Both the position numbers and the translations under genes were made by a program. The notes under the pieces were generated by a model. That model made no database searches. It saw nothing but the letters and a program-made list of their open reading frames with translations, and had not been told where the DNA came from. DNA of 38,719 nt from Burkholderiales bacterium (GTDB lineage: Bacteria; Pseudomonadota; Gammaproteobacteria; Burkholderiales; SG8-39): contig JALHLN010000003.1 in NCBI GenBank assembly GCA_022844545.1, forward strand, positions 1 through 38,719, in the 5' to 3' direction. Position 1 is the stretch's first letter, and every line of letters starts with the position of its first letter. Below are positions 10,017 to 26,710 of this stretch, one piece after another.

Positions 10017-10808
10017 ATGCGTACCGGAGCGGGGCAGATCGATTCGATTCGGACATCCCCGCTGCGATCCGGCGCCCCGCGCTACGCGCTGCTGGCCGAG
10101 TCCATCGTCGACGACATCCGCTCCGGCCGCTATGCGATCGGCTCGATGCTTCCCACCGAAGCGGACCTGTGCCGGGCGTTCGGCGTGTCGCGGCACACCG
10201 TGCGCGAGGCCCTGAGGAGGCTGGGCGACCTGGGCCTGGTGTCGCGGCACCAGGGCATCGGCACCCGCGTAAAGGCGCGCCAGGACAGCACGCGCTTCGT
10301 GCAGTCCATAGGCAAGCTCTCGGACCTGTTCGGCTTCATCGACAACACGCGCCTCGCGGTCGTCTCGCGGCACGATGTCCACGCAACGCCGGCAAAGCGG
10401 CGCCTGCTGCGTTGCGCCCCCGGCCAGCGCTGGCGGATGCTGGAAGTGCTCCGCTACCAGTCCGGGTCGAAACAGCCGATGGTGGTGAGCGAGATCTACA
10501 TCCCGCAGGCGCATGCCGCGGTGGAGAAGGAGATGCGCGACCTGCGGGTGCCGATCTACACCCTGATCGAGCAGCGTTACGGGGAGCGCATTTCCGAGGT
10601 GCAGCAGGAGATCGATGCCTGCGCGCTGGCGCCGGACAAGGCGCGCCTGCTCGGTGTGCGCGCCGGCTCCCCGGGCCTCGCGATCACGCGCCACTACTTC
10701 GGCGGGAACGACAAGCTGCTCCTGGTGTCCGCGAGCCTGTACCCGGCAGGGCGCTTCACCTCGAAGATGCGCCTGCGCGCCTCGGCGCACGACCCTGCAA
10801 CCACATGA
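10017..10808 (+). CDS. GntR-family transcriptional regulator (HutC/UTRA subfamily)
   Basis: This 263-aa regulator has an N-terminal winged helix-turn-helix (about residues 22-88; LPTEADLCRAFGVSRHTVREAL, with LVSRHQGIGTRV as the wing) and a C-terminal UTRA ligand-binding domain (about 110-255; contains VVSEIYIP and LAITRHYF). UTRA regulators usually repress a neighbouring catabolic operon until a small metabolite binds. I chose the ATG at 10017 over the track start at 9960, because the first 19 residues of the longer form look non-conserved; neither has a strong ribosome site. It heads a long co-directional cluster (MmgE/PrpD to TRAP), so it is the probable local controller, likely through the palindrome at 9939. 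Confidence 0.9.
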   Translation: MRTGAGQIDSIRTSPLRSGAPRYALLAESIVDDIRSGRYAIGSMLPTEADLCRAFGVSRHTVREALRRLGDLGLVSRHQGIGTRVKARQDSTRFVQSIGKLSDLFGFIDNTRLAVVSRHDVHATPAKRRLLRCAPGQRWRMLEVLRYQSGSKQPMVVSEIYIPQAHAAVEKEMRDLRVPIYTLIEQRYGERISEVQQEIDACALAPDKARLLGVRAGSPGLAITRHYFGGNDKLLLVSASLYPAGRFTSKMRLRASAHDPATT

Positions 10809-10809
10809 T

Positions 10810-10827
10810 CAGGGCGGTAGCGCCCTG
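10810..10827 (+). other. Stem-loop between the regulator and mmgE/prpD
   Basis: CAGGGCG-GTAG-CGCCCTG is a perfect 7-bp stem with a 4-base loop, two bases after the regulator stop and just before the GGAG of the next gene. No T-run follows, so it is not an ordinary terminator. It could stabilise or separate the transcript, or hide the ribosome site. Confidence 0.45.
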
Positions 10828-10839
10828 CCTGGAGACCTC

Positions 10840-12264
10840 ATGAACGCCCCTGCCCATCCGCAAGCGCTGGCCGCCACAGCCAACGACACGACCATTTCCA
10901 GCGCGCTGGCGCAGTTCGCCAGCGGGTTGCGCTGCGACGACATCCCGGCAGCCGTGGTCGAGCGCGCCAAGCTGCACGTGCTCGATTGCATCGGCATCGG
11001 CTTCGCGTCGACCGGATTCGAGTTCGGCCAGCGCACCATCAATGCGCTCGCGGGACTGGCTGGCGATGGGCCCTACCCTGTGCTCGGCACGTCACTCGGT
11101 CTGCCCTTGCGCGACGCGATGCTCGCCAACGGCACGCTGATCCACGGCCTGGATTTCGACGATACGCATTCCGGGGCGGTCGTTCACGCTTCCGCGAGCG
11201 CGGTGCCGGTCATGCTGGGCGTCGGCCAGCGCGAGCGGGCGAGCGGCCGCGAGGCGCTTGCCGCCTACCTGGTCGGGGTCGAGGCCTCGAGCCGCATCGG
11301 CCAGGCGGCGAAGAACGGGTTCCACCTGCGCGGCTTTCATCCCACCGGCGTGGTCGGCGCGTTCGGCGCGACGCTCGCCGCCGGGCGGCTCTCCGGGATG
11401 AGCCCGGCGCAAATCACACACGCACAGGGCATCGTCCTCTCGATGGCATCCGGCAGCCTCGAGTTCCTCGAGGACGGCGCGTGGACCAAGCGCATGCACC
11501 CCGGCTGGGCCGCCTCGTCGGCGGCGACCGCCTGTGCGCTCGCGCGATCCGGTTTCGCCGGCCCGAAACGCGCCTACGAGGGGCGGTTCGGACTGTTCAA
11601 CGCCTACGTGGGCGCGCAGCATCCGGCCGAGCCGGCGATGAGCGTCGCGGCGCTCGGCGAGACCTGGGAGATGCTGAACGTGGCGATGAAGCCCTATCCA
11701 GCCTGCCACTTCAACCATGCGTTCGCCGACGCGGCGCTCGAACTGCGCCGCCAGCATGCCTTCGCGCTCGAGGACATCGAATCGATCACGGCGCGCATCG
11801 GCGCTGGGCAGACCCAGGTGGTGTGCGAGCCGGAAGCGAGCAAGCGCCGGCCGAAGAGCGCGTACGAGGCGCAGTTCTCGGTCCATTACACCATCGCCAC
11901 GTCGCTGGTGCGCGGATGCTTCACGCTTTCTGAGCTCGAGGAAGAGGCACTGGCCGATCCGCGCACGCTCGCACTGACGCAGAAGACCCGCTACGAGATC
12001 GATCCGGATTCGGCGTTTCCCCGCTACTACTCCGGCGAGGTGGTGCTGCGGCTGAAGGATGGCCGCGAACTGCGCCATCGCGAGCCGAACAACCGCGGCT
12101 CCGACGCGCGCCCGCTGACCGCCGACGAGATCGTGGCGAAGTTCCACGGCAATGCGGGCCGGGTGATGAGCCGGTCGCGCGCGGAACGGGTGGTCGAAGC
12201 CGTGCTGGCGCTCGAGCGGGCCTCCTCGCTCGACGCGCTCCTGGCCTCAGTACGCCTGAATTGA
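10840..12264 (+). CDS. MmgE/PrpD family protein
   Basis: This 474-aa protein is full length for the family, which includes 2-methylcitrate dehydratase (PrpD), cis-aconitate decarboxylase (IRG1/CadA) and iminodisuccinate epimerase. Visible family blocks are HGLDFDDTH (about residue 105), FHPTGVVGAFGAT (about 168), the SLEFLEDGAWTKRMHPGWAA segment around residues 205-230, and KPYPACHFNHA (about 285). The members are metal-free lyases or epimerases acting on small polycarboxylates. The precise reaction is unknown here, but the neighbouring CoA-transferases and CitE-like lyase make a C5-C7 dicarboxylic or tricarboxylic acid plausible. The start is ATG 10840 with GGAG six bases upstream; the track ORF extends wrongly into the regulator gene. 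Confidence 0.9.
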   Translation: MNAPAHPQALAATANDTTISSALAQFASGLRCDDIPAAVVERAKLHVLDCIGIGFASTGFEFGQRTINALAGLAGDGPYPVLGTSLGLPLRDAMLANGTLIHGLDFDDTHSGAVVHASASAVPVMLGVGQRERASGREALAAYLVGVEASSRIGQAAKNGFHLRGFHPTGVVGAFGATLAAGRLSGMSPAQITHAQGIVLSMASGSLEFLEDGAWTKRMHPGWAASSAATACALARSGFAGPKRAYEGRFGLFNAYVGAQHPAEPAMSVAALGETWEMLNVAMKPYPACHFNHAFADAALELRRQHAFALEDIESITARIGAGQTQVVCEPEASKRRPKSAYEAQFSVHYTIATSLVRGCFTLSELEEEALADPRTLALTQKTRYEIDPDSAFPRYYSGEVVLRLKDGRELRHREPNNRGSDARPLTADEIVAKFHGNAGRVMSRSRAERVVEAVLALERASSLDALLASVRLN

Positions 12265-12293
12265 AATCCCTGAACGCCATCCAAGGAAAACCC

Positions 12294-13142
12294 ATGACCC
12301 TCTCGACCCGGCCGCTCACGGCCACTTTCGGCGCCGAAGTCAGCGGCGTGGACCTGGCCGCGCCGCTGGACGCGCAGACCGCGGCGGACTTGCGCGCGCT
12401 GTGGCTGAAGCACGAGCTGCTCCTCTTTCGCGGGCAGACGCTGGACGAGAAGCAGCTGGTCGCGTTCTCGCGCCATTTCGGGGAGCTCGAGATCCACCTG
12501 CGGCGCGAGTACCTGTCGCCGGAGAACCCGGAGGTGCTCTACGTCTCCAACGTCAAGAAAGATGGCAAGCCGGTCGGCATCCTCTCCGATACCGAGGTGG
12601 GCTGGCACTACGACCAGATCTACCTGCCGCGGCCCGCGGTGGGTTCCTGCCTGTACGCCGTGATCATTCCCGCCGACCGTGGCGCCACCTCGTTTGCCGA
12701 CATGTCGGCGGCCTACGAGGCGCTGCCGGAGCGCACCAGGCAACGGATCGAAGGGCGCAAGGCGGTGCAATCCTACGAGGCCTTCAACCGCAGCTACAGC
12801 GTGCCCACCAGCGAGGAGCAGCGCAGGAAGTCTCCCGACATCGAGCAGCCGCTGGTGCGAACCCATCCGTACACCGGCCGCAAGGCGCTCTACATCTGCC
12901 CCGGCATGACGACGCGGATCGTCGGCCTTCCCGAGCAGGAGAGCGCCGAGCTGCTGGCCGAGCTGTTCGCGTGGACGGTGCAGCCGCGCTTCGTCTACAC
13001 CCATGCCTGGCGGCTGGGCGACGCGCTGCTATGGGACAACGCGTGCACGATGCATCGCCGCGAACCGTTCGATGGCACCCAGCAGCGCCTGATGAAGCGC
13101 ACCACCATCCTTCCCGACGCGGCCGTCGCGGTGCCGTTCTGA
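12294..13142 (+). CDS. TauD/TfdA family Fe(II)/2-oxoglutarate dioxygenase
   Basis: The 282-aa protein has the family length and the iron-binding facial triad: H105-x-D107 in GWHYDQIY and the distal H254 in DNACTMHRREPF. R265 is the expected 2-oxoglutarate anchor. The opening LTATFGAEVSGVDL is typical. Family members hydroxylate sulfonates, phenoxyacetates or other acids and release succinate and carbon dioxide. The ATG at 12294 has AAGGA six to seven bases upstream and is preferred over the TTG at 12261. It lies 29 bases after the MmgE/PrpD gene and overlaps the next gene by one base (TGATG). The metal ligands are complete, so it is probably active, substrate unknown. Confidence 0.9.
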   Translation: MTLSTRPLTATFGAEVSGVDLAAPLDAQTAADLRALWLKHELLLFRGQTLDEKQLVAFSRHFGELEIHLRREYLSPENPEVLYVSNVKKDGKPVGILSDTEVGWHYDQIYLPRPAVGSCLYAVIIPADRGATSFADMSAAYEALPERTRQRIEGRKAVQSYEAFNRSYSVPTSEEQRRKSPDIEQPLVRTHPYTGRKALYICPGMTTRIVGLPEQESAELLAELFAWTVQPRFVYTHAWRLGDALLWDNACTMHRREPFDGTQQRLMKRTTILPDAAVAVPF

Positions 13143-14338
13143 TGGCCGCGCTGCCATTGGAGGGCATCCGGGTCCTTGACCTGTCGAACTTCCTCGCCGC
13201 GCCGATGGCGGCGATGTTCCTTGCCGATTTCGGCGCCGAGGTGGTGAAGATCGAGCGGCCCGGCGGCGGCGACGAGATGCGCCTGTGGGGGAACAACAAG
13301 AACGGCGTCGGCCTGTATTACAAGGTCATCAACCGCAACAAGAAATCCGTCACCCTCGACCTGCGCACGCCGTTCGGCCGCGACGCGGCGCTGCGTCTGG
13401 CGCGCGATGCCGACGTGGTGCTGGAGAACTACCGTCCCGGAACGCTGGAGAAATGGGGGCTTGGATACGACGCGCTTTCGGCGGCCAATCCCGGGCTGGT
13501 GCTGGTGCGCGTCTCCGGATTCGGGCAGACCGGGCCGAAATCGCATCGTCCCGGTTTCGGCACCCTCGCCGAGGCGTACTCGGGGTTCGCGCACATCAAT
13601 GGCGAGGCCAATGGACCGCCGCTCCTGCCGGGGTTCGGCCTGGCCGACTCCACCACGGGGCTGATGGCGGCATTCCTCTCGATGGTGGCGCTGAAAGGCC
13701 GCGAGGCCAACGGCGGCCGGGGGCAGGTGGTGGACCTCGCCATCTACGAGCCGCTCTTCATGCTGCTGGGGCCGCAGGTCATCAACTTCGACCAGCTCGG
13801 CCTGGTCCAGCAGCGCAACGGCAGCAGACTGCCGTTCACCGCGCCGCGCAACACCTACCGCACGCGCGACGGCCGCTGGGTATCCATGGCCGGCAGCGCA
13901 CAATCGATTTTCGTGCGCGTGCTGGCGGCGCTGGAGGTTCCGCGCCTGGTCGATGATCCGCGCTTTGCGGACAACCGCGCCCGCCTGGTCAACGCCGTGG
14001 CCCTCGACGTCGAACTGCAGAAAGCCTTCGAGCGTTTCGATCTCGACGAGATCCTGCAGCGCTTCGATGCCGCCGGCGGGGCGGTCGCCCCGGTGAACGA
14101 CGTCGAGCAGTTCATTTCCGACCCGCACATTCAGGCGCGTGGCAATATCACCACGGTCGAGGACGCCGAGCTCGGCGGACCGGTACGCATGCAGAACGTC
14201 GTCGGCAATCTATCGGCGACGCCGGGAGCGGTGCGCTGGGCCGGTCCCCGCCTGGGCGAGCATAACCGCGAGATCCTCATCGAGCGCCTCGGCCTCGACG
14301 CCGATGCGGTGCGCGCCGCCGGAATCGAGCTGACGTGA
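13142..14338 (+). CDS. Class III CoA-transferase (CaiB/BaiF family), copy 1
   Basis: This 398-aa protein starts with the family signature GIRVLDLSNFLAAP and continues with FGAEVVKIE, NRNKKSVTLDL, VLENYRPGTLEKWGL and a catalytic-type aspartate in GFGLADSTTG (about residue 169, where formyl-CoA transferase has D169). The enzymes move CoA between carboxylic acids through an aspartyl-CoA intermediate. The ATG at 13142 overlaps the dioxygenase stop. The track ORF starting at 12401 is a shadow extension. It probably activates the pathway acid using succinyl-CoA or acetyl-CoA; this is inferred from the position next to lyase genes. Confidence 0.92.
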   Translation: MAALPLEGIRVLDLSNFLAAPMAAMFLADFGAEVVKIERPGGGDEMRLWGNNKNGVGLYYKVINRNKKSVTLDLRTPFGRDAALRLARDADVVLENYRPGTLEKWGLGYDALSAANPGLVLVRVSGFGQTGPKSHRPGFGTLAEAYSGFAHINGEANGPPLLPGFGLADSTTGLMAAFLSMVALKGREANGGRGQVVDLAIYEPLFMLLGPQVINFDQLGLVQQRNGSRLPFTAPRNTYRTRDGRWVSMAGSAQSIFVRVLAALEVPRLVDDPRFADNRARLVNAVALDVELQKAFERFDLDEILQRFDAAGGAVAPVNDVEQFISDPHIQARGNITTVEDAELGGPVRMQNVVGNLSATPGAVRWAGPRLGEHNREILIERLGLDADAVRAAGIELT

Positions 14339-14360
14339 AGCGATCGTCATTGGAGGGCAA

Positions 14361-15323
14361 GTGCTGAAGCTGCCGCAGAAGGTCAAGGTCGTCGAGGTCG
14401 GGCCGCGCGACGGCCTGCAGAGCTTTCATCGCTGGGTGGATACCGACACCAAGGTGGCGATGATCGATCGCCTCTCGGCGGCCGGTTTCCCCATGATCGA
14501 GGCCACCAGCTTCGCGCGCCCGAGCGTGGTGCCGCACCTGAAGGACGCCGAGCTGGTGCTCGCGCGCATCCAGCGCCGGCCGGGGACGAAGTATCGCGCG
14601 CTGGTGCCGAATGCCAAGGGGGCCGAGCGCGCCGTCGCTAGCGGCCTGGTCGACGAATTGCTCGGCCTGATCACGGTGAGCGAGACCTACCTCGCGCACA
14701 ACCAGAACATGACGCTCGACAGGGCGATCGCTGAGGGCATCCGCGCCTTCGAGATCGCGACCGCAAAGAATATCGGCTTCACCATGGCGCTGGGCATGGC
14801 CATGTGGTGCCCCTACGAAGGCCGCGTGCCGGAGGCCAACGCGCTTAAGGTGCTCGGCCGCTTCTGGGATGCCGGCCTGCGGCGCTTCTATTTCGCCGGC
14901 AGCGTCGGCATGGAGGATCCCGTTCACGTGCATACCCTGTTTCGCATGGCGAACGAGCGCCATCCGGGCATCGAACTCGGTTATCACGTCCACAACGTAC
15001 CGGGTTTCGGCGTCGCAAACGTGCTCGCCGCGCTGGACGCCGGCGCGTCATTCCTCGAAGGCTCGATCTGCGGCGTGGGGGGCGGCATCGCCATGCCGAC
15101 CAATATGGGCATGGTCGGCAACCTGCCGACGGAAGATATCGTGCACCTGCTGAACTCTTGCGGCATCTCGACCGGCATCGATACGGCACAGGTGCTCGCC
15201 TGTGCACGCGAGATCGGTCAGATGCTCGACATGGAACCGCTGTCGCACCTGTCTCACTGCGGCACGCGCGAGGAACTGCTCGCGCGCACGCGCGGCCAGG
15301 CGTTCCAGCATCCGGGCCGATGA
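14361..15323 (+). CDS. Hydroxymethylglutaryl-CoA lyase-like protein (DRE-TIM metallolyase)
   Basis: This 320-aa protein starts at a GTG with GGAGG upstream. The DRE-TIM metal site is complete: VEVGPRDGLQ (R16, D17), HVH near residue 209 and the VGN asparagine near 253. The loop that in HMG-CoA lyases reads GLGGCP(F/Y)A reads GVGGGIAM here, so the catalytic-lid cysteine of true HMG-CoA lyase is replaced by glycine. It therefore probably cleaves a related 3-hydroxyacyl-CoA or works by a somewhat different acid/base arrangement. It lies between two CaiB genes, suggesting a CoA-thioester substrate made by one of them. Product names of the mvaB type should not be transferred without care. Confidence 0.87.
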   Translation: MLKLPQKVKVVEVGPRDGLQSFHRWVDTDTKVAMIDRLSAAGFPMIEATSFARPSVVPHLKDAELVLARIQRRPGTKYRALVPNAKGAERAVASGLVDELLGLITVSETYLAHNQNMTLDRAIAEGIRAFEIATAKNIGFTMALGMAMWCPYEGRVPEANALKVLGRFWDAGLRRFYFAGSVGMEDPVHVHTLFRMANERHPGIELGYHVHNVPGFGVANVLAALDAGASFLEGSICGVGGGIAMPTNMGMVGNLPTEDIVHLLNSCGISTGIDTAQVLACAREIGQMLDMEPLSHLSHCGTREELLARTRGQAFQHPGR

Positions 15324-15333
15324 GCGAGCACCC

Positions 15334-16569
15334 ATGAGCGATCCCCGATCGACGACCTCTCCGGCACGCGGCCCTCTGGCGGGCATCCGCGTGCTGGACT
15401 GTGCGACCTTCATTGCCGGGCCGTACTGCGCCACGTTCCTCGCCGAGTTCGGCGCGGAGGTGGTGAAGGTCGAGCAGCCGGGCCCGGGAGACCCGACGCG
15501 CAAGTTCGGCACGCCCACGCCGTGCGGCGATTCGCTGGTGTGGCTCTCGGAGGGACGCAACAAGAAGTCCCTGACCATCGACTTGAAGAATGCCGAGGGC
15601 GCCGCACTGCTCAAGCGCCTGGTCGAGAAGACAGACGTGCTGGTGGAGAACTTCCAGCCCGGCACGCTGGAGCGCTGGGGCCTGGGCTGGGAGGAGCTGA
15701 AGAAGCACAACCCGCGCCTCGTGATGGTGCGCATTTCGGCGTACGGCCAGACCGGGCCCTACAGCCCGCGCCCGGGATTTGGCCGTATCGCCAATGCCTT
15801 CGGCGGGATTTCCTTCCTTGCCGGCTACCCCGACCGGCCGCCGGTGACCCCGGGCTCGGCGACGCTGCCGGATTACCTTTCCGGGATGTACGGCGCCATG
15901 GGCGCCCTGGTCGCGCTGCGTGCGCGCGAGCACACGGGCGAAGGCCAGGTGGTGGATATCGGCCTGTATGAATCGGTCTTTCGCATCCTCGACGAACTGG
16001 CGCCCGCCTATCACTACAAGGGACTTGTGCGCCAGCGCATGGGACCGGGCACCGTGAACGTCGTGCCCCACAGCCACTACCCGACACGCGATGCCCGCTG
16101 GATCGCGATCGCCTGCACCAACGACAAGATCTTTGCCCGCCTGGCGGCGTTGATGGGCCACCCCGAATGGGCGGGAGAGGGCAAGTGGGGCAAGGTCGCG
16201 CAGCGCGAGGCCGAGCGCGAAGCCGTGGATGCCGCGGTCGGGGAGTGGACCAGCCGTCGCGATCGCGAGGAACTGCTCGCGATCTGCAGCAAGGGCGAGG
16301 TACCCTGCGGGCCGCTGTACTCGATCGACGAGATCTTCACCGACCCCCAGTACGCCGCGCGCGGCAACATCGCCCGTGTGCGGGAGCCGCGAGTGCCGGG
16401 CAACCCTGAATTCGCGGTACCGAACGTGGTGCCGCGCCTGAGCGAAACGCCGGGCGCCATCCGCTGGCTGGGACCCGCGCTCGGGGCGCATACTGACGAT
16501 GTGCTCGAGGACTGGATCGGTCTTGGCGCGGCCGAGATCGCGGCGTTGAGGCAATCCGGCGCCATCTAG
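15334..16569 (+). CDS. Class III CoA-transferase (CaiB/BaiF family), copy 2
   Basis: The 411-aa protein opens with LAGIRVLDCATFIAGPYCA and has FGAEVVKVEQPGPGDPTRKFG, GRNKKSLTIDL, LVENFQPGTLERWGLG and the aspartate in TLPDYLSGMYGA near residue 177, the position of the CoA-transferase nucleophile. The start is ATG 15334; the track ORF runs back into the lyase gene in another frame. An ATG 14 bases earlier is out of frame. It differs clearly from copy 1, so the two are not a recent duplication and may act on different acids. It is 19 bases before the HpaB-like gene. Confidence 0.92.
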   Translation: MSDPRSTTSPARGPLAGIRVLDCATFIAGPYCATFLAEFGAEVVKVEQPGPGDPTRKFGTPTPCGDSLVWLSEGRNKKSLTIDLKNAEGAALLKRLVEKTDVLVENFQPGTLERWGLGWEELKKHNPRLVMVRISAYGQTGPYSPRPGFGRIANAFGGISFLAGYPDRPPVTPGSATLPDYLSGMYGAMGALVALRAREHTGEGQVVDIGLYESVFRILDELAPAYHYKGLVRQRMGPGTVNVVPHSHYPTRDARWIAIACTNDKIFARLAALMGHPEWAGEGKWGKVAQREAEREAVDAAVGEWTSRRDREELLAICSKGEVPCGPLYSIDEIFTDPQYAARGNIARVREPRVPGNPEFAVPNVVPRLSETPGAIRWLGPALGAHTDDVLEDWIGLGAAEIAALRQSGAI

Positions 16570-16588
16570 AAGGAAAGAGGAGAGCAGC

Positions 16589-18228: not shown

Positions 18229-18771
18229 ATGGACTCGAGCCGCGTCGCGCTGCTCGTCATCGATGTCCAGGGCCGGCTGGCGCCGCGTGTCATCGGCGCC
18301 GATGGGATCGAGCAGCGCTGCATCGCGCTCATCGAAGGCGCCAAGGCCTTGCGGATTCCCGTGTTCCTCACCGAGCATTGTCCCGAGGCCCTCGGCGCCA
18401 CCCTGCCGTCCATCCGGGGGCTGGTCGCGGAATCGGCGATTTTCGCCAAGCGCCATTTCTCCGCGATGAACGAACCGGCGCTGCCCGAGGCACTCAAGCG
18501 GAGCGGGCGCGACCAGGTCCTCGTCGCCGGCATGGAAGCGCATGTCTGCGTGATGCAGACCGTGCTCGGGGTGCTGCAGGCGGACTACCGCTGCTGGCTG
18601 GCCACGGATGCGCTCGGCTCGCGCCGGCAGGAGGACCGGCAAGCCGCGATCGACCGCCTGCGCGACGCGGGGGCGACGCCCGCGAGCGCCGAGATGGCGC
18701 TGTTCGAGTGGGCGAAGCACGCCGACCATCCGGCTTTCCGGACCATCCTTTCGCTCGTCAAGGCCTATTGA
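18229..18771 (+). CDS. Isochorismatase-family cysteine hydrolase
   Basis: This protein of 180 aa contains the family triad: D12 in LLVIDVQ, K74 in IFAKRHFS and C107 in MEAHVCVMQT. These hydrolases cleave amides, carbamates or vinyl ethers (nicotinamidase, maleamate amidase, isochorismatase); the subgroup here cannot be fixed. The start is uncertain. A GTG at 18205 would add eight residues, while the ATG at 18229 begins right at the domain, and neither has a clear ribosome site. It is 38 bases after the HpaB-like gene and 10 before the CitE-like gene. An amide-bearing substrate or intermediate would explain its presence. Confidence 0.87.
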   Translation: MDSSRVALLVIDVQGRLAPRVIGADGIEQRCIALIEGAKALRIPVFLTEHCPEALGATLPSIRGLVAESAIFAKRHFSAMNEPALPEALKRSGRDQVLVAGMEAHVCVMQTVLGVLQADYRCWLATDALGSRRQEDRQAAIDRLRDAGATPASAEMALFEWAKHADHPAFRTILSLVKAY

Positions 18772-19758: not shown

Positions 19759-19817
19759 CCCGGCGTTTCCAGACCGGCACGAGAGCCGGTTCGAATTACC
19801 TTCTGAGGAGGAGGCAC

Positions 19818-20957
19818 ATGATGCGACCCACGACGCGACGTCTTTCCACCAAGGCCGCTGCCGGTGCGCTGGTAGCAGCGCTTGCCGCAGGCGCCGCCCT
19901 TCCCGACCGTGATGCCGTCGCACAAGCGATCAAGCCGGTGGTGCTGCGCTTTGCGGCGGACTTCCCGCCGGCCCCGCATCCGGCCGGCCTGGCGATGAAC
20001 CACTTCAGGGACCGCCTGGCGCAGGCGATTCCCGGCAGCGAGGCGCGCCTGTACTTCGCCGGCGCCCTGTACACCATCCCGGAGGCCTTCGAGGCCATGC
20101 GCCAGGGCAACCTGGAGATGACCTGGCTGCAGATGGGCAAGGCGGCGCCGGTCGATCCGTGGATGATGACGATGGTCGGTCCCGGAATCCTGACCACGGT
20201 GGGTGCCGTGGACAACGTGGAGTCGACCAAGACCTACCAGATGCTGGTCGACCGGCTGCAGAAGAACCAGCAGATCCGGGTGTTCGGCACCGGACACATG
20301 AGCTTCGGCATGGGCGTGGGCGGCAAGAAGCGCTACCTGACCCCCGCCGATTTCAGCGGCCAAAAGATCCGCAGCATGGGCCCGGTGGAGAACGCCTCGC
20401 TCGAAGTCTGGAAGGCGAGCCCGGTGGTGATGGCCTTCGGCGAAGTGCCGACGGCGCTGCAGTCCGGCGTGATCGACGCCCTGCAGACCAGCATCGGCGG
20501 TTGGCTGGCGGTGCGTCAGCAGGCGCCCTTCTACACCACGGGCGGCGCCGGCGCGTTCACCGCCGACTACTACATCGTGAGCGCGAGCCGGCGCTGGTGG
20601 GACCGCCTGCCCAAGCCGACGCAGGAAGCGCTCGGGAAGGTCATCATGGAGACCATCCAGGTGCAGAAGGAACTGAACTGGTGCGTCGACAAGATGACCT
20701 ATGACAAGTACGGCACCAAGGACCCGTCCAAACCGGGCGTGTACTGGTTGAACCCGCAGGAGGTGTCCGCGATCACGGGCTCGATGGGCGATGCGCCGGC
20801 GCGCTACATCAAGAGCAAGACCCCTGCCGCGGTCAGTCCGTGGGTCGACACCTTCATCAAGGAAGGGCGCGAGTTGTCCCAGAAGCACCCGGTGGGGTCG
20901 TCGTGGATCGAGAAGATCGACTGCTCCAAGCACGCCTCCAAGATCATCATCCGCTAG
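19818..20957 (+). CDS. TRAP transporter substrate-binding protein (DctP family)
   Basis: This 379-aa periplasmic receptor has a twin-arginine-like basic start (RPTTRR), a hydrophobic segment and a predicted cleavage near AVAQA (residue about 35). The mature part shows the DctP layout, including GQKIRSMG with the conserved arginine that usually salt-bridges the ligand carboxylate, then VPTALQSGVIDALQT. It is slightly longer than typical family members. A GAGGAGGAG ribosome site lies just before the ATG. It is followed directly by the small and large permease genes, so this is a complete tripartite uptake system. A carboxylate ligand is expected, matching the CoA-transferase neighbours. Confidence 0.92.
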   Translation: MMRPTTRRLSTKAAAGALVAALAAGAALPDRDAVAQAIKPVVLRFAADFPPAPHPAGLAMNHFRDRLAQAIPGSEARLYFAGALYTIPEAFEAMRQGNLEMTWLQMGKAAPVDPWMMTMVGPGILTTVGAVDNVESTKTYQMLVDRLQKNQQIRVFGTGHMSFGMGVGGKKRYLTPADFSGQKIRSMGPVENASLEVWKASPVVMAFGEVPTALQSGVIDALQTSIGGWLAVRQQAPFYTTGGAGAFTADYYIVSASRRWWDRLPKPTQEALGKVIMETIQVQKELNWCVDKMTYDKYGTKDPSKPGVYWLNPQEVSAITGSMGDAPARYIKSKTPAAVSPWVDTFIKEGRELSQKHPVGSSWIEKIDCSKHASKIIIR

Positions 20958-20961
20958 GTCG

Positions 20962-21513
20962 GTGGAAAAGGCCTACACGGCCTGGCGCGCGTTCCAGGAC
21001 AAGGTCCTGGCGCGCGTCGCAGGCCTGCTGCTCGTCGGCTGCACCCTGCTCGCGCTGCTCGAGGTCGGGCGGCGCTACTTAGTCGGCCGCTCCTTCGAGT
21101 GGCAGCAGGATGCGGTCACCTTCTTCATGCTGAGCGGGGTGTACCTCTACTTCAGCGTCGCGCAGCGCAAGAACGCGCACCTCTCGGTCACGGTGGTGCC
21201 GGAGCTGTGCGCCGTCGCCGGCCCGCGCGCGAAGCTGGCCGGGGAGATCGTGAAGGCCGTCGCGCTCGCGTTCTCGATGGTGTTCCTCATGCTGGTGTTC
21301 TGGTGGGGCATCCCCGAGGTGGAGGACGCGATCAAGTACGAGAGCCGCACCGAGAGCCTCGGCTTCCCGATGTGGCCCTTCCTGCTCGCACTGCTGCTCG
21401 GCTTCGGCTTCATGGCGGTGACGCAGGTGTTCCAGCTCTGGTTCACGATCCAGCGGCTGCTCGGCCGCCCGGTGCCCGAGTTCCCGGGAGACGCCGAGGA
21501 GGGCGGGCACTGA
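20962..21513 (+). CDS. TRAP transporter small permease (DctQ family)
   Basis: The 183-aa protein shows about four hydrophobic segments (near residues 18-38, 53-70, 95-118 and 135-160), as in DctQ subunits, and contains the FFMLSGVYLYFSVAQRKNAHLSV block with polar residues between helices 2 and 3. The GTG start at 20962 lies four bases after the dctP stop; the track ORF from 20791 is a shadow extension. It forms the inner-membrane partner of the DctM subunit. Confidence 0.88.
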   Translation: MEKAYTAWRAFQDKVLARVAGLLLVGCTLLALLEVGRRYLVGRSFEWQQDAVTFFMLSGVYLYFSVAQRKNAHLSVTVVPELCAVAGPRAKLAGEIVKAVALAFSMVFLMLVFWWGIPEVEDAIKYESRTESLGFPMWPFLLALLLGFGFMAVTQVFQLWFTIQRLLGRPVPEFPGDAEEGGH

Positions 21514-21554
21514 GCCGCCCCTTGTAGCGCAGAACAAGAAAAGTAGGAGTTTCG

Positions 21555-22847
21555 ATGAATCTCGTTGGCCTCGTCCTGCTCGTCCTGCTCGTGCTGTCGG
21601 TGCCGATCGGCATCGCGCTCAGCGCCGCGGCGGCCTCCTACATCATGTTCGATCCGGTGCTGGAACCGACCGTGATCTTCCGCGCCTTCTTCAGCTTCAT
21701 CGGCCGCTATTCGCTGATGGCGATCCCGCTGTTCATCTTCGCCGGCTTCCTGATGGAACGTACCGGCCTGGTGTCCCAGTTGTTCCGCTTCGCCGACTCG
21801 CTGGTGGGCTGGCTGCCGGGCGGCTTCGGCGTCGCCACGGTGCTCGCCTGCGTGCTGTTCGGCGCCATCTCGGGCTCCAGCGTGGCGATGGCGGCGGCGA
21901 TGGCCGTGATCGCCATCCCGGAGATGCGCAAGCGGGGCTACCCGGACTGGCTGTCGGGAGGACTGGTGGCCACGGCCGGCGGCATCGCCATGCTCATTCC
22001 GCCCAGCATCATCCTGCTGGTGTACGGCATCATCACCGAGACCTCGATCGTGGAACTGTTCTTCGCCGGCATCATCCCGGGCCTGCTGCTCGCGACCGGC
22101 AACGCCCTCAGCGTCATGGGCATCGCGCTGTACCTGAAGCTGCCGGGCAGCGGGCGCTTCCAGGGCAAGCGCGTCTGGGCCGAGTTCAAGGGCGCGGCGC
22201 CGGCGCTGGGCATGCCCATCGTCATCCTGGGCGGCCTCTACGGCGGCCTGTTTACCCCCACCGAGGCCGCGGCCGCGGCCTGCGGCTACGCCATGCTCTA
22301 CGGCGTGCTCAGCGGCGGGTGGAAGTTCATCCGCGAAGTCCTGCCCACCGCCGAGCGCGCGCTCAACCTGACCGCGGTGGTGGTGTTCCTGATCGGCAGC
22401 GTGGGCGTGTTCCAGTTCCTCGCCGCCAACATGTACTGGCCGCAGAAGATCGCCGAGACCGTGACGGGCTGGGGCCTGACGCCGCTCGGCTTCATCTTCG
22501 CCTACATGTTCGTGCTCATGATCCTGGGCATGTTCGTGGACGGCGTGGCGATGGTGATCCTGACCGTGCCGGTGATCTTCCCCATCGCCATGGCGCTCAA
22601 GATCGACCCGGTGCACCTGGCAATCATGATCACGCTGAACGTGGAGATGAGCGTGGTGACCCCGCCGGTGGGCCTGAACCTGTTCGCGGTGAGCGGTTCG
22701 TCGAGTATTCCCTTGCCGCAGGTGATCAAGGGGACCATTCCGTTCTTCGTCGGCGACCTGACGGTGCTGCTGCTGGTGATCTTCATCCCAGAACTGGCGA
22801 CCTGGCTACCGAGCCAACTGGTCACCGACCACTTCAAGGACCGATAG
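21555..22847 (+). CDS. TRAP transporter large permease (DctM family)
   Basis: The 430-aa protein is almost entirely hydrophobic with roughly 11-12 membrane segments, the expected size for DctM. It shows FGAISGSSVAMAAAMAVIAIPEM and GIAMLIPPSIILLVYG, the re-entrant-loop signatures of this secondary transporter family, and VTPPVGLNLFA near the C-terminus. AGTAGGAG precedes the ATG. It is the last + strand gene of the cluster and stops 15 bases before the convergent MaoC gene. I saw no convincing terminator in that short gap. Confidence 0.93.
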   Translation: MNLVGLVLLVLLVLSVPIGIALSAAAASYIMFDPVLEPTVIFRAFFSFIGRYSLMAIPLFIFAGFLMERTGLVSQLFRFADSLVGWLPGGFGVATVLACVLFGAISGSSVAMAAAMAVIAIPEMRKRGYPDWLSGGLVATAGGIAMLIPPSIILLVYGIITETSIVELFFAGIIPGLLLATGNALSVMGIALYLKLPGSGRFQGKRVWAEFKGAAPALGMPIVILGGLYGGLFTPTEAAAAACGYAMLYGVLSGGWKFIREVLPTAERALNLTAVVVFLIGSVGVFQFLAANMYWPQKIAETVTGWGLTPLGFIFAYMFVLMILGMFVDGVAMVILTVPVIFPIAMALKIDPVHLAIMITLNVEMSVVTPPVGLNLFAVSGSSSIPLPQVIKGTIPFFVGDLTVLLLVIFIPELATWLPSQLVTDHFKDR

Positions 22848-22862
22848 CGCCGCCGCCCCGCC

Positions 22863-23339
22863 CTACCCCGCCTCGTGGCCCCGCTTGGGCACGAGGACGG
22901 TGCGCTCGAAGCTCATGAATTCGGTGCCGTCGGCCTTCAGGCCCCGGGTGCGCACCGTCACCAGGCCCTGCGTCGGGCGCGACTTCGACTCGCGCTTGGA
23001 ACGAACTTCCGACTCCGCGTAGAGCGTGTCGCCGGCGAACACCGGCGCGGTGAGCTTTATCTTGTCCCAGCCCAGGTTGCCGATCGCCCGATAACTCACA
23101 TCGTCCACGCTCATGCCGACCACGATGGACAGCGTCAGGCAGCTGTTCACCAGCGGCTTGCCGAATTCCGTCTTCGCCGCGTAGGCATGGTCGAAGTGCG
23201 CTGGGTGGTTGTTCATGGTGAGCAGCGTGAACCAGGTGTTGTCGGCCTCGCTCACCGTGCGCCCCGGGCGGTGCTCGTAGATGTCACCGACCACGAAGTC
23301 CTCGTAGCTGCGGCCGTGGCTCGCGCGTATCCGTGTCAT
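22863..23339 (-). CDS. MaoC family hydratase/dehydratase
   Basis: The 158-aa single hot-dog protein contains SYEDFVVGDIYEHRPGRT and NNHPAHFDHAYA. In R-specific enoyl-CoA hydratases the equivalent motif is GDxNPxHxD, so the catalytic aspartate position is asparagine while the histidine is kept. The RESKSRP segment and overall pattern recall the MaoC proteins found with CaiB, CitE-like and acyl-CoA dehydrogenase genes in itaconyl/mesaconyl-CoA pathways, from memory. The start is ATG 23339; the 29 extra residues of the track ORF lie over the upstream CaiB gene. GGAG before it lies in the end of that gene, seven bases away, so translation is probably coupled. Confidence 0.88.
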   Translation of the reverse strand: MTRIRASHGRSYEDFVVGDIYEHRPGRTVSEADNTWFTLLTMNNHPAHFDHAYAAKTEFGKPLVNSCLTLSIVVGMSVDDVSYRAIGNLGWDKIKLTAPVFAGDTLYAESEVRSKRESKSRPTQGLVTVRTRGLKADGTEFMSFERTVLVPKRGHEAG

Positions 23340-23346
23340 GCGGGGG

Positions 23347-24456
23347 TCAACTCCTTCCGAGGATGGCCGCGCCGTGCTCGCCCATGGCGGGCTCGCGCAG
23401 GTCCGGTTGCGCCGGCTCGCGCGCAAAGCGCAGCGGCGTGTTGATGTGGCGGCGCCCCAGGCCGTCCGTGAGCACCATGCCGCGCGCGAGCAGCTGCGGG
23501 TCCCGCAGCGCCTCCGGGAAGGTCTTGAGTTCCCCGAAACACACGTCCAGCGTCGACAGGTACGCCACCCAGTCGGCGAGGGACTTCTTCCTGAATTCGT
23601 CGCGCAGGAACTGTTCCACAGGCTGTTGGTGCGGGCCCGGCTTCTCGCACAGCGGAGCCAGCTCCGGCCGGCCGAGCGCGCCCAGCAGGTTGCGCACGAA
23701 CTTCATCTCCTGGCCGGCGAGCGCGAGGTGGCGCCCGTCGGCGGTGTCGTAGATCTGGTAGAAGGCCGCGCCGCCGGTGGTGCGCTCGTGCCGCGCCACC
23801 TGCTGCCGATCCTCGGCGAGCGCCGGCCCCAGCAGGTTGGCCGAGGCCGAGACCATGCAGTCGTGCATCGAGATGTCGAGGTAATCGCCCTGCCCGGTCT
23901 GCTGCCGGCGCAGGAGCGCCATCAGGATGCCCGCCAGGCCCTGCAGCGAGGCCACCATGTCGGCCGCGGGTACGGCGGGAATGGCGGGCTGGCCGTCGCG
24001 GCCCTGGCTCACGCTGAGGACGCCGCTCACGCCTTCCACGCCCATGTCGTGCGACGGACGGTCGCGGTAGGGGCCGTCCTGGCCGAAGGCGCTGATGGAG
24101 CAGTAGACGATGCGCGGATTGCGCGCGGACACCGTGGCGTAGCCGATGCCCAGCCGGTCCATGACGCCGGGCCGGAAAGTTTCCACGAACACGTCGGCGC
24201 TGTCGCACAGGCACAGCAGCGCCTCCTTGTCGGCGGGGTCCTTGAGGTTCAGCACCACGCTCTTCTTGCCGCGGTTGAGATTGCGGAAGTAGACCGTGCT
24301 GGGCCCGTCGGACGGGCCCAGGTTCCGCACCGGATCGCCCTCCCCCGGCGCCTCCACCTTGATCACCTCGGCGCCATGGTCCGCCAGCGCCTTGGTGAGG
24401 TACGGGCCCGGCAGGAACACCGAGAGGTCGACGACGCGGATGCCCTTGAGCTTCAT
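23347..24456 (-). CDS. Class III CoA-transferase (CaiB/BaiF family), copy 3
   Basis: This 369-aa protein opens KGIRVVDLSVFLPGPYL and shows HGAEVIKVEAPGEGDP, NRGKKSVVLNLKDP, FVETFRPGVMDRLGIGY and an aspartate in PAVPAADMVASLQG. The shorter length and the AADMV segment resemble the alpha-methylacyl-CoA racemase side of the family, so racemase or isomerase chemistry is also possible. The ATG at 24456 overlaps the stop of copy 4 as ATGA. The track ORF continues upstream only as a shadow. It is the third gene of the four-gene minus-strand operon. Confidence 0.9.
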   Translation of the reverse strand: MKLKGIRVVDLSVFLPGPYLTKALADHGAEVIKVEAPGEGDPVRNLGPSDGPSTVYFRNLNRGKKSVVLNLKDPADKEALLCLCDSADVFVETFRPGVMDRLGIGYATVSARNPRIVYCSISAFGQDGPYRDRPSHDMGVEGVSGVLSVSQGRDGQPAIPAVPAADMVASLQGLAGILMALLRRQQTGQGDYLDISMHDCMVSASANLLGPALAEDRQQVARHERTTGGAAFYQIYDTADGRHLALAGQEMKFVRNLLGALGRPELAPLCEKPGPHQQPVEQFLRDEFRKKSLADWVAYLSTLDVCFGELKTFPEALRDPQLLARGMVLTDGLGRRHINTPLRFAREPAQPDLREPAMGEHGAAILGRS

Positions 24457-25613
24457 GCCTTGCCGAGCAGCGCCTCGTTGTCGGCGCCGGCCGCGGACCC
24501 GGCGCGCTGCTCCAGGCGGCGGCCGTCGATGCGGATCGGGTTCGCGAGCACCCGCAGCGAGCCGCGCACCGGATGCGGCACCGTGCCGATCATGCCCGTC
24601 TGCTTCGGGAATGGGCTCTCCAGCGCCTGCGCGATGTCGTTCACCGGGCCGATGGGCAGCATGCCCGATAGCTTCGCCAGCCAATGCGCCGTCGGCTGGC
24701 GCCGGAATTCGGCGTCCACGGCTTCAGTGAGCGCAGCCCGGTTTTCCAGCCGCGCGGCCATGGTGGCGAAGCGGGCGTCCCGGGCGAGTTCCGGCCGGCC
24801 CAGGCCGGCCGCCAGCGCTTCCCAGAATGGCTGCGTCATGCAGGCCACGAACACCCAGCCGTCCGCGGTCGGAAAGGTCTGCACCGGGGTAAGCGACAGA
24901 TGCGCCCCGCGCGGCTGGCGCGTGGACTCGTAGCCTTCGTTGAGGTACCAGGTGGCCGAGTAGCCCAGCTGGTGCAGCGCCACGTCGTAGAGGCTCACGT
25001 CCACGTCGCAGCCCTTGCCGGTCTTCTGTGCGCGCAGCAGGCAGGCGAGCAGGCCGACGGCGCCGGTGGTGCCGGTCATGTAGTCGATGAACGCGACGCC
25101 CGCGCGGGCGGGCGCGCCATCCGGCTCCCCGGTGAGGCTCATCACACCGGCTTCGGCCTGCATCAGGTAGTCGAACCCCGGCCGCGCGGTGCGCTCATTG
25201 TCGCGGCCGAATGCCGAGATATGCAGGCAGACGATCTTCGGGTTGTGGCGCGACAGCGCGGCATAGTCCAGGCCCAGCTTGGCCGGCTGGTCGCCGCGCA
25301 GGTTGTTCATGACGGCGTCGGCCGAACGCACCAGGCGCTCGAAGTCCGCCCGCCCGCCGGCGCTCTTCAGGTCGAGCAGGACGCTCTTCTTGTTGGCATG
25401 CCAGGTCTGGTAGTACAGGCTGTCGCCTGGCGCGGCGAAGTAGGGCCCGACGCGGCGCGACGGCTCGCCGTCGGGTCCGGGCTCGACCTTGATCACCTCC
25501 GCGCCCAGCTCGGCGAGCATCGCCGAGCCGTAGGGACCGGCGCCGAAATGCTCCAGGGTCAGCACCCGGATCCCCTGCAGTGGTTTTGGCGCGGCGGCCG
25601 CGCCGCCGCTCAT
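24453..25613 (-). CDS. Class III CoA-transferase (CaiB/BaiF family), copy 4
   Basis: The 386-aa protein begins LQGIRVLTLEHFGAGPYGSAML and has LGAEVIKVEPGPDGEPSR, ANKKSVLLDLKS, MNNLRGDQPAKLGLDY and the expected nucleophile region AFIDYMTGTTGA. Asn-Leu-Arg replaces the more common ENYRPG/ENFRPG element. I chose ATG 25613, which makes an ATGA overlap with the acyl-CoA dehydrogenase stop; ATG 25637 would add eight residues and has no better ribosome site. It differs strongly from copies 1-3. Adjacent dehydrogenase and MaoC genes suggest it makes or exchanges the CoA thioester used by them. Confidence 0.9.
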   Translation of the reverse strand: MSGGAAAAPKPLQGIRVLTLEHFGAGPYGSAMLAELGAEVIKVEPGPDGEPSRRVGPYFAAPGDSLYYQTWHANKKSVLLDLKSAGGRADFERLVRSADAVMNNLRGDQPAKLGLDYAALSRHNPKIVCLHISAFGRDNERTARPGFDYLMQAEAGVMSLTGEPDGAPARAGVAFIDYMTGTTGAVGLLACLLRAQKTGKGCDVDVSLYDVALHQLGYSATWYLNEGYESTRQPRGAHLSLTPVQTFPTADGWVFVACMTQPFWEALAAGLGRPELARDARFATMAARLENRAALTEAVDAEFRRQPTAHWLAKLSGMLPIGPVNDIAQALESPFPKQTGMIGTVPHPVRGSLRVLANPIRIDGRRLEQRAGSAAGADNEALLGKA

Positions 25614-26710
25614 CCCACCGGATTTCGCTTCAGCCATTGCTTCGAGATGATGATGCGCTGCATCTCGTTGGTGCCCTCGCCGATGCAGGTGAGCGGCGCG
25701 TCTCGGTACAGGCGCTCGATGTCGAACTCCTTCGAGTAGCCGTAGGCGCCGTGGATGCGCATGGATTCGATGCTGTTCTCCAGCGCGGCCTCGGAGGCAA
25801 AAAACTTCGCCATCCCCGCCTCCATGTCGCAGCGCTCGCCACGGTCGAAGGACATCGCCGCGTCCAGCGTCAGCAGGCGCGCGGCGCGGGCGCGCGTGGC
25901 CATCTCGCCCAGCTTCAACTGGATCGCCTGGTGCTCGGCGATCGGCTTGCCGAAGGTCCTGCGGATCTGCGCGTAGTCCGAGGCGAGCTTCAGCGCGCCT
26001 TCGGCGATGCCCACGCCGCGGGCGGCGACGTTGATGCGGCCCAGTTCCAGCCCGCCGGTGACCTGACGGAAGCCCTGCCCTTCCTCCCCCCCGATCAGGT
26101 GGTCGGCGGGCACGCGGTAGTCGTTGAACACGATCTCGCCCGAGTCGATGCACTTGTAGCCCAGCTTCTCCAGCTTCCTGCCAACGGTGAATCCGGGGCC
26201 CTTGGGCGCGATGAACAGGCTCATGCCCTTGTGGCGCGGCTGCGCGTTGGGATCGGTCTTCACCAGCAGCGCGACGCAGGAGCCCTCGATGCTGTTGGAG
26301 ATCCAGGTCTTGGTGCCGTTGATGACGTACGTGTCGCCCTCGCGGCGCGCGGTCATGCGGATGCCCTGCAGGTCGGTGCCGGCATCGGGCTCCGTGAGCG
26401 CAAGGCCGCCGCGCACCTCGCCGCTCGCGAAGCGCGGCAGCCACTGCCGCTTCTGCGCCTCGGTGCCGAACTTCTCCACCGCAAGCGCCAATATCAGGTG
26501 CGAATTGAAGATCCCGGTGAGCGCCATCCACACCGAGGAGATGTGCATCACGATGCGGGCATAGAGCGAGGCCGGCAGCCCGAGGCCGCCGTACTCCGGC
26601 GACACCGTGGCGCCGAACAGGCCCATTTCCTTCATCTGCTCGACCAGCTCGTGCGGGTAGCGGTCGGCGTGGTCGTATTCCTTCACGCGCGGCCGCACCT
26701 CGCGCTCCAC
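25610..26710 (-). CDS. Acyl-CoA dehydrogenase
   Basis: The 366-aa (from GTG 26710) flavoenzyme has the family motifs ALTEPDAGTDLQG (FAD and substrate site), TKTWISNS, RRTFGKPIAEHQAIQ and the C-terminal IGEGTNEMQRIII. The reading frame stays open upstream of the GTG with plausible family sequence (LLEAIERW before the GTG), reaching a CTG at 26791 that overlaps the superoxide dismutase stop. That start would give 393 aa, closer to the usual 380-395, so the true start may be non-ATG and further upstream. It is the first gene of a tightly overlapping operon (dehydrogenase, CaiB, CaiB, MaoC) and would form the 2,3-double bond of an acyl-CoA. The electron acceptor is presumably ETF. Confidence 0.9.
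   Translation of the reverse strand: MEREVRPRVKEYDHADRYPHELVEQMKEMGLFGATVSPEYGGLGLPASLYARIVMHISSVWMALTGIFNSHLILALAVEKFGTEAQKRQWLPRFASGEVRGGLALTEPDAGTDLQGIRMTARREGDTYVINGTKTWISNSIEGSCVALLVKTDPNAQPRHKGMSLFIAPKGPGFTVGRKLEKLGYKCIDSGEIVFNDYRVPADHLIGGEEGQGFRQVTGGLELGRINVAARGVGIAEGALKLASDYAQIRRTFGKPIAEHQAIQLKLGEMATRARAARLLTLDAAMSFDRGERCDMEAGMAKFFASEAALENSIESMRIHGAYGYSKEFDIERLYRDAPLTCIGEGTNEMQRIIISKQWLKRNPVG

Follow-up and report, generated by a model that had tools for sequence, protein, structure and literature searches.

Between positions 10017 and 26710 of the window (the whole stretch of 38,719 nucleotides analyzed here, which comes from a freshwater bacterium), Pfam detected above the curated cut-offs, and in open frames, all of the types that a previous sequence-only reading had listed there, i.e. 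CaiB, MaoC, CitE, acyl-CoA dehydrogenase (ACAD), HMGL-like, MmgE/PrpD, TRAP, GntR, dioxygenase, HpaB, and isochorismatase. The genes are arranged in two convergent operons, with intergenic gaps mostly of -4 to 67 bp. The plus-strand operon runs from a GntR/UTRA (HutC-type) regulator (10017..10808; Pfam GntR 75 bits, UTRA 68.6 bits), through an MmgE/PrpD family enzyme (10840..12264), a TauD/TfdA-type Fe(II)/2-oxoglutarate dioxygenase with an HxD...H motif (12294..13142), the CaiB-type (family III) CoA-transferase 1 (CaiB1, 13142..14338), an HMGL-like lyase (14361..15323), the CaiB-type CoA-transferase 2 (CaiB2, 15334..16569), the 'HpaB' flavoprotein (16589..18190), an isochorismatase-type (cysteine) hydrolase (18229..18771), and a CitE/HpcH-type CoA-ester lyase (18782..19699), to the TRAP substrate-binding protein DctP (19818..20957), small permease DctQ (20962..21513), and large permease DctM (21555..22847). 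The minus-strand operon runs from the ACAD gene, through the CaiB-type CoA-transferases 3 (CaiB3, 24453..25613) and 4 (CaiB4, 23347..24456), which bring the CaiB genes of the locus to four (two on each strand), to a MaoC-type hydratase that resembles RipB/mesaconyl-CoA hydratase (22863..23339). Conservation of the ACAD frame extends upstream of the listed GTG start (25610-26710) and reaches a CTG, at position 26791, in overlap with the stop codon of sodC, and this CTG is the probable start of the gene (25610..26791). A nitroreductase-family protein (7534..8217, minus strand), 59-61% identical to one near HMGL/GntR in two genomes (G152 and G250) and 92% identical to one beside MmgE in another (G211), is a probable outer member of the gene set. 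Positions 81-7537 carry genes for hydantoinase B, amidohydrolases, and a Rieske oxygenase.

Both domains of the regulator scored over their cut-offs, and a conserved palindrome lies ahead of the operon, as in a HutC-type repressor system. This palindrome, TTGTCCGGACAA (9939..9950, plus strand), is a putative GntR operator located 66 bp before the GntR ATG, and a -35-like hexamer, TTGACA, can be read at 9909..9914 of the same strand; the hexamer is placed likewise ahead of the MaoC gene in the L018 and L019 loci described below. Exact or near-exact copies of the palindrome were found upstream of related clusters (consensus TTGTMCGKACAA), and the whole assembly containing the window has two exact sites. 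Intergenic positions accounted for 29 of 30 among the matches listed, and the DNA examined contained 18 exact copies as against a mean of 0.27 and a maximum of 4 for shuffled palindromes, a comparison with some overlap between loci and with shuffles that take no account of the selection of these loci for relatedness. The window regulator, which is 37-42% identical to those of other clusters, may bind to this palindrome, and the latter offers a handle for finding more members of the cluster type.

The sequence-only reading had proposed to look for the same gene set in other genomes. A near-full set was indeed found in the L018 and L019 loci, and its core in other families and classes, a recurrence that is more than chance. 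In L018 and L019 the plus-strand set recurs together with MaoC, ACAD, and one CaiB at 54-94% identity, and the order, read with a codon-usage gene caller, is MaoC-ACAD-CaiB3-GntR-MmgE-TauD-CaiB1-HMGL-CaiB2-HpaB-isochorismatase-CitE, all in one direction. CitE, isochorismatase, CaiB, ACAD, and MaoC lie together in L158 (CitE 62% identical), and the genome G098 holds CaiB1-HMGL-GntR-CitE-CaiB2 at 55-70% identity (GntR, 42%), accompanied by a LIV-type ABC importer; there, CaiB1 is 70% identical to the partner of HMGL, CaiB2 is 67-69% identical to the partner of CitE, and CitE itself is 59% identical. A MaoC-MmgE-ACAD-CaiB-GntR-CitE core is kept in Azospirillum, Caballeronia, and Pseudosulfitobacter, and so is the TRAP system except in Caballeronia, where none was in view; MaoC, MmgE, ACAD, and (in Azospirillum) CaiB3 are 51-69% identical to those of the window, and the CaiB of the Pseudosulfitobacter cluster is 30% identical.

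In a genome of the same genus (G059), ACAD-CaiB3-CaiB4-MaoC-TRAP is present, and whole-genome searches gave no match to TauD, HMGL, or HpaB, which indicates that the two operons are separable. The locus might thus consist of two independent neighboring operons that serve different acids, one being ACAD-CaiB-CaiB-MaoC-TRAP and the other GntR...CitE. In agreement with this, a separate contig carries the TauD/MmgE part in G211, and a CitE-MaoC-ACAD-CaiB-CaiB unit with its own, different CitE exists in L150-L152. Moreover, the palindrome was found neither ahead of ACAD nor ahead of DctP in the window, so that the minus-strand operon is preceded by no recognized operator, and this counts against a single regulon. 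Nevertheless, in L018 and L019 the orthologous MaoC-ACAD-CaiB3 genes come first in the GntR operon, downstream of a single palindrome, and MmgE, GntR, and CitE accompany MaoC-ACAD-CaiB in a further three lineages; we regard two independent operons as quite unlikely. The minus-strand ACAD, CaiB, and MaoC genes probably belong with the plus-strand operon, and their grouping in the sequence-only reading agrees with the single operon of L018 and L019 and with the order in L158. The palindrome shared upstream of related clusters would also link two modules, i.e. MaoC-MmgE-ACAD-CaiB-GntR-CitE and CaiB-HMGL-GntR-CitE-CaiB.

The HMGL-like protein, previously described as an HMG-CoA-lyase-like enzyme, belongs to the DRE-TIM barrel family of HMG-CoA lyase (Pfam; 233 bits to PRK05692) and keeps the PRDG and HVHN motifs, the Asn of GN, and, in the alignment, all of the metal-site residues (D42, H233, H235, and N275). 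However, the catalytic G-loop Cys266 of HMG-CoA lyase is missing; the window loop, GVGGGIAMP, is three residues longer, and a Cys lies about five residues earlier. The loop Cys is absent from the window protein and from the 5 related proteins shown, and is present in the canonical L029, L081, and L150 proteins.

The 'HpaB' protein (Pfam HpaB_N+HpaB) had its best matches, both by sequence and by Foldseek, in the 4-hydroxybutyryl-CoA dehydratases 6VJR and 1U8V, with which it shares the fold and 32-34% identity over the whole length; among solved relatives, these dehydratases scored 279-289 bits, against 97 bits. Two ligands of the dehydratase [4Fe-4S] cluster (C99 and H292) are kept, whereas C103 is replaced by Tyr, C299 by Ala, Y296 by Cys, and E455 by Ile, and the window protein has instead an invariant C94, an invariant C290, and a C-terminal CCxxGC motif. 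Its invariant residues are C94, C99, H286, and C290. The AlphaFold model is good over approximately the first 70% of the chain and poor at 387-411, 434-455, and 494-533. Relatives of this 4-hydroxybutyryl-CoA-dehydratase-like (4HBD-like) protein were found at more than 500 places in bacterial genomes, and its pairing with the isochorismatase gene is widespread without the other cluster genes, most related loci lacking the rest.

Isochorismatase-type hydrolases are often amidases. This general knowledge, together with the HpaB fold and the genes at 81-7537, would suit an aromatic or N-heterocyclic pathway with 'HpaB' as a flavin-dependent monooxygenase of the phenol type, the isochorismatase as an amidase, and the CoA part only completing the breakdown of the ring-cleavage product. 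Such a pathway is highly improbable, since 'HpaB' fell far below the equivalog cut-offs for 4-hydroxyphenylacetate 3-monooxygenase (117/480 and 67/885 bits), its nearest solved relatives are the dehydratases, and neither a flavin reductase nor a ring-cleavage dioxygenase was recognized in the cluster. Because 'HpaB' is closer to 4-hydroxybutyryl-CoA dehydratase than to phenol monooxygenases, its substrate may be a CoA ester and not an aromatic precursor. The earlier placing of the HpaB-like protein outside the itaconate pathway stands in that it has no role there, and the funnelling of a larger precursor into the pathway is plausible. An amide group as a general feature, considered because of amidases beside two clusters, was weakened by the finding that those amidases are 31% identical.

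In the MmgE/PrpD protein, the methylsuccinate isomerase (Msi) residues H88, E91, H102, H152, K202, and K266 (P. aeruginosa numbers) are all kept, E91 as Asp, and the second catalytic base, Tyr148, is Leu (Gln, Lys, or Arg in relatives). The curated PrpD equivalog cut-offs were missed (46.8/950, 28/575, and 22.7/458 bits), and nothing indicated cis-aconitate decarboxylation, one of the reactions of relatives mentioned before. By the tests made, the protein appears to be neither Msi, which is one subgroup of MmgE/PrpD (2023 and 2025 papers; PMC9875883, PMC12290011), nor PrpD. A true Msi was not found in the genome of the window, and was found in 23 of 200 genomes of the order (orthologs, 59-67%).

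Clusters of CaiB, ACAD, MmgE/PrpD, MaoC, and CitE digest branched C5 diacids, and the pathway logic is established for the P. aeruginosa/Cupriavidus necator cluster (PMC9875883, PMC12290011). The earlier claim of a new combination therefore does not hold, as ACAD and MmgE/PrpD already accompany CaiB, MaoC, and CitE in that characterized itaconate/methylsuccinate cluster; literature searches for the gene combination of the window cluster gave no match. Compared with the P. aeruginosa copy, the window MmgE is 30%, ACAD 34%, CaiB 29-32%, and CitE (against Ccl) 36-37% identical, and no similarity was found between MaoC and Ich; the P. aeruginosa copy served as reference because a Shinella plasmid cluster (L178), tried as a stand-in, had an ACAD 76% identical to P. 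aeruginosa Mcd and an MmgE at 34%. An ordinary itaconate, methylsuccinate, or citramalate pathway, with the same chemistry carried out by unrelated or distant enzymes as in the Yersinia and Pseudomonas versions, would be consistent with the enzyme types of PA0878-PA0886, with the documented convergence (PMC12290011), with RipB/Ich being the closest NCBIfam family to MaoC (229 bits), and with the absence of a recognized Msi, a gap that the cluster could fill. Against it, identity to the characterized enzymes is 29-37%, the RipB and RipC cut-offs were missed (229/340 and 157/375 bits; RipB was reached by 0 of 300 genomes of the order), Tyr148 is missing, and that pathway offers no role for the extra TauD, HMGL-like, and 4HBD-like genes. 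We consider it rather unlikely. The window proteins are not orthologous to Ich, Mcd, Msi, Ict, or Ccl; hence, a CoA-dependent branched-dicarboxylate pathway, as proposed before, fits the gene set, but itaconate itself is not specifically indicated.

We therefore favor, with moderate confidence, a single regulon that would serve the breakdown of a substituted (branched) dicarboxylate after its import and that consists of distant paralogs of the itaconate/methylsuccinate cluster parts, and because the enzymes are distant paralogs the substrate is probably another acid than itaconate or methylsuccinate. No window enzyme has a characterized ortholog that would point to this acid, a fact that counts against the reading. 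As predicted from the protein families, the TRAP system would import the acid, MmgE/PrpD would interconvert its stereoisomers or (de)hydrate the free acid, and CaiB-type transferases would activate it with CoA taken from succinyl-CoA. ACAD would then desaturate the acyl-CoA, MaoC would hydrate the product, and cleavage of the resulting hydroxyacyl-CoA by CitE would yield acetyl-CoA and a 2-oxo acid. A further CaiB, paired with the HMGL-like protein, would handle another CoA ester, with a C-C cleavage that dispenses with the usual Cys; a larger or amidated precursor would be prepared by TauD, the 4HBD-like flavoprotein, and the isochorismatase-type hydrolase; and GntR would repress the operon at TTGTCCGGACAA. 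A bolder version, an undescribed substituted-dicarboxylate CoA-ester pathway with a 'HpaB' Fe-S cluster held by C94, C99, H286, and C290 and acting on a CoA ester, and an HMGL relative cleaving without the loop cysteine, is doubtful. Naming the substrate would help to assign roles in the large and little-understood MmgE/PrpD, CaiB, HMGL-like, and 4HBD-like families.

The locus represents a second cluster type, with a shared palindrome, built in freshwater, soil, and marine bacteria from the same parts as the branched C5 diacid clusters. The P. aeruginosa PA0878-PA0886/C. necator cluster, composed of Ich, Mcd, a VOC lactonase, Msi, Ict, Ccl, and TRAP, has in common with the window CaiB, a MaoC-fold hydratase, a CitE-type lyase, ACAD, MmgE/PrpD, and TRAP, but its regulator is of the LysR rather than the GntR family, and the TauD, HMGL-like, 4HBD-like, and isochorismatase-type genes are extra in the window. 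The clusters of Azospirillum p3, Caballeronia pSBC1_2, and Pseudosulfitobacter pSMR1-4, annotated by family only, lack HMGL, TauD, the 4HBD-like gene, and the second CaiB pair, and their CitE is more distant (37-38%). In contrast, they contain orthologous-looking MaoC (68-69%), ACAD (68%), MmgE (52-54%; 54% in Azospirillum), and, in Azospirillum, CaiB3 (51%), and they share with the window a GntR regulator and the palindrome TTGTMCGKACAA or a version one mismatch off.

The enzyme types that the sequence-only reading had listed at positions 10017-26710 were all found there above the Pfam curated cut-offs. The window corresponds to the entire contig C3 of a draft assembly (3.25 Mb, 346 contigs, 85.6% complete), and the genes are organized in two convergent operons with intergenic gaps mostly of -4 to 67 bp. 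The plus-strand operon reads GntR-MmgE/PrpD-TauD-CaiB1-HMGL-CaiB2-'HpaB'-isochorismatase-CitE-DctPQM, with DctPQM encoding a TRAP importer, and the minus-strand operon reads ACAD-CaiB3-CaiB4-MaoC, where ACAD is an acyl-CoA dehydrogenase and CaiB1 to CaiB4 are CaiB-type CoA-transferases. The ACAD gene lacks an ATG, GTG or TTG at the onset of coding similarity (26788-26791), and a CTG at 26791 overlaps the stop of sodC (CTGA). Because an identical CTG context is conserved in G211 and G059, two genomes of the window's genus, the sequence suggests a CTG start with translational coupling to sodC. This Cu/Zn superoxide dismutase gene adjoins the cluster in the window (26788-27309), G059, G211, G241 and the compared locus L018 (13248-13757), its exact position varying.

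Upstream of the cluster, an IS1595-family element (transposase at 8739-9686) splits a phosphatidylethanolamine-binding-protein gene at 8362-9893, leaving its first part at 8362-8745 and its final residues (FYLNFNTLAKASLTGLFRR) immediately before the GntR promoter. An amidohydrolase and a nitroreductase gene, with a 4-bp overlap, occupy 6398-8217; G211 has homologs of this pair flanking MmgE, with a truncated amidohydrolase and only a fragment of GntR, and a nitroreductase homolog is found near HMGL in genomes G152 and G250. At the contig start (81-6361), hydantoinase B, TctC, amidohydrolase, acyl-CoA ligase and Rieske oxygenase genes are tightly ordered, and they may be part of the same catabolic island because a homolog of the Rieske protein (78%) adjoins DctP in G211 (L154:13649-14752).

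The same gene set was sought elsewhere, as the sequence-only reading had proposed, and most of it was recovered. A scan of GTDB with 'HpaB' as the query returned 80 named loci. The nearest are in metagenome-assembled genomes mostly labelled betaproteobacteria, including one from deep Lake Baikal. The complete plus-strand set is present in L018 (Baikal) and L019, with MaoC-ACAD-CaiB3 immediately ahead of GntR-MmgE-TauD-CaiB1-HMGL-CaiB2-HpaB-isochorismatase-CitE, all in the same direction. Locus L020 carries a LIV-type ABC importer in place of TRAP, interleaved among the same cluster genes, and an isochorismatase gene was not detected there; L021 repeats GntR through 'HpaB' at 90-96% identity. 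The core was also observed in other families, as in G098, which contains CaiB1 (70%)-HMGL (55%)-GntR-CitE (59%)-CaiB2 (67%) and a LIV-type importer. Genome G055 harbors CitE (62%)-isochorismatase (46%)-CaiB-ACAD (69%)-MaoC (67%), and plasmid p3 of Azospirillum argentinense bears CitE | MaoC (68%)-MmgE (54%)-ACAD (68%)-CaiB (51%)-GntR with TRAP genes, a core shared by Pseudosulfitobacter and Caballeronia. G059 and G211 keep ACAD-CaiB3-CaiB4-MaoC next to the TRAP genes and sodC, at the ilvBNC locus. Whole-genome searches of G059 gave no match for TauD, HMGL or 'HpaB', and in G211 TauD-MmgE is on a separate contig; since the two parts are joined in other loci, the operons are separable yet repeatedly united. 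These comparisons indicate that the gene grouping is not due to chance.

A palindrome, TTGTCCGGACAA, is located at 9939-9950, downstream of TTGACA and 66 bp ahead of GntR. In L018 and L019 it likewise follows TTGACA and precedes their operon, which begins with MaoC; an intact phosphatidylethanolamine-binding-protein gene directly precedes the palindrome in both. A scan of 2.7 Mb of compared DNA found 30 matches to TTGTMCGKACAA or to either of two similar forms, some being one site in overlapping loci, and 29 of them were intergenic. They fall in the window, L018, L019, G098 (between GntR and CitE), G152, G250, loci L150-L152, Azospirillum (in the CitE/MaoC gap and near DctP), Pseudosulfitobacter and Caballeronia (ahead of MaoC), and contig C224 of the window's own genome. 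The exact palindrome occurred 18 times, whereas palindromes shuffled from its letters averaged 0.27 occurrences and never exceeded 4, a control that does not allow for the loci having been selected as related. It occurs twice in the own assembly, the second copy lying beside a second TRAP system on C224 (L225:789-5054), where it stands 3 bp past a DctP stop codon and precedes DctQ/DctM; a portion of a further DctP gene is found before these. In the window, no such site accompanies the minus-strand operon, and no regulator could be recognized in the vicinity of L150-L152. The site at 9939-9950 is a putative operator of GntR, with the caveat that binding to similar palindromes is common among HutC-type GntR proteins.

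Two proteins do not fit their names. 4-hydroxybutyryl-CoA dehydratases (1u8v, 6vjr) match 'HpaB' at 279-289 bits, and the best phenol-type monooxygenase reaches 97 bits; an AlphaFold model (mean pLDDT 77) gave the same ranking. In the alignment, the 1U8V cluster ligands C99 and H292 are retained, whereas C103 and C299 are replaced by Tyr and Ala, and Y296 and E455 by Cys and Ile. All 88 sequences nevertheless share residues C94, C99, H286 and C290 of 'HpaB', and there is also an invariant C-terminal CCxxGC; these residues may hold a relocated iron-sulfur cluster. Relatives occupy 522 candidate places in GTDB genomes; isochorismatase is encoded nearby in roughly half of the related loci inspected, and the majority of the related loci lack the remaining cluster genes, so the pair looks like a recruited module. 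In L076 and other Variovorax loci the 4-hydroxybutyryl-CoA-dehydratase-like gene is divergent from TetR, isochorismatase and propionyl/acetyl-CoA synthetase-like genes, with apparent 2-oxoglutarate dehydrogenase genes alongside. In the HMGL-like protein the metal-site residues of HMG-CoA lyase are retained but the loop Cys266 is missing; its loop is three residues longer and has a Cys about five residues earlier, features also seen in L018, L020, G098, G152 and G250. There is a real chance of new enzymology in both proteins.

From family knowledge, the substrate would be taken up by TRAP, receive CoA from succinyl-CoA through CaiB3/CaiB4, be desaturated by ACAD, hydrated by MaoC and cleaved by CitE to acetyl-CoA and a 2-oxo acid. 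The free acid would be the substrate of MmgE, a second CoA ester would be handled by CaiB1/CaiB2 together with the HMGL-like lyase, and TauD, the dehydratase-like protein and the isochorismatase-type hydrolase would work upstream of the CoA-ester enzymes. We hold this CoA-dependent diacid pathway to be somewhat favored, and its substrate is probably a 2-substituted succinate or a similar diacid outside the C5 group. In L150-L152 the same palindrome precedes oxidoreductase and hydrolase genes, which are followed by CitE-MaoC-ACAD-CaiB-CaiB; this arrangement agrees with a larger molecule being funnelled into the pathway.

The combination of CaiB, MaoC, CitE, ACAD, MmgE/PrpD and TRAP is already known from the itaconate/methylsuccinate cluster PA0878-PA0886 of P. 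aeruginosa and its C. necator counterpart (De Witt et al. 2023, PMC9875883; Gonner et al. 2025, PMC12290011), and the substrates could simply be itaconate or methylsuccinate, which we consider unlikely. Window MmgE does share His88, Glu91 (as Asp), His102, His152, Lys202 and Lys266 with Msi of that cluster; however, the second base Tyr148, named among the Msi catalytic residues in PMC12290011, is Leu in the window and Gln, Lys or Arg in MmgE relatives, and a neighboring invariant His could substitute for it. Compared with a plasmid-borne copy of the P. aeruginosa cluster (its Ccl 99.6% identical to the solved chain 8khl), identities were 30% for MmgE, 34% for ACAD, 29-32% for CaiB1-4 and 36-37% for CitE, and MaoC had no detectable similarity. 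Within the order, 23 of 200 genomes carry true Msi orthologs (59-67%), and none was found in the own genome. In a 17-row tree with several long branches elsewhere, window MmgE falls into one group (93/91) with the Azospirillum, Pseudosulfitobacter and Caballeronia proteins and is separate from Msi, and the window proteins did not reach the cut-offs of the itaconate degradation models RipB and RipC. The gene observation of the sequence-only reading was confirmed and its pathway interpretation stood in part: given the low identities (29-37%), the loss of Tyr148, the MmgE tree and the missed cut-offs, sequence comparison places the window cluster outside the characterized itaconate/methylsuccinate type, as a cluster type parallel to it.
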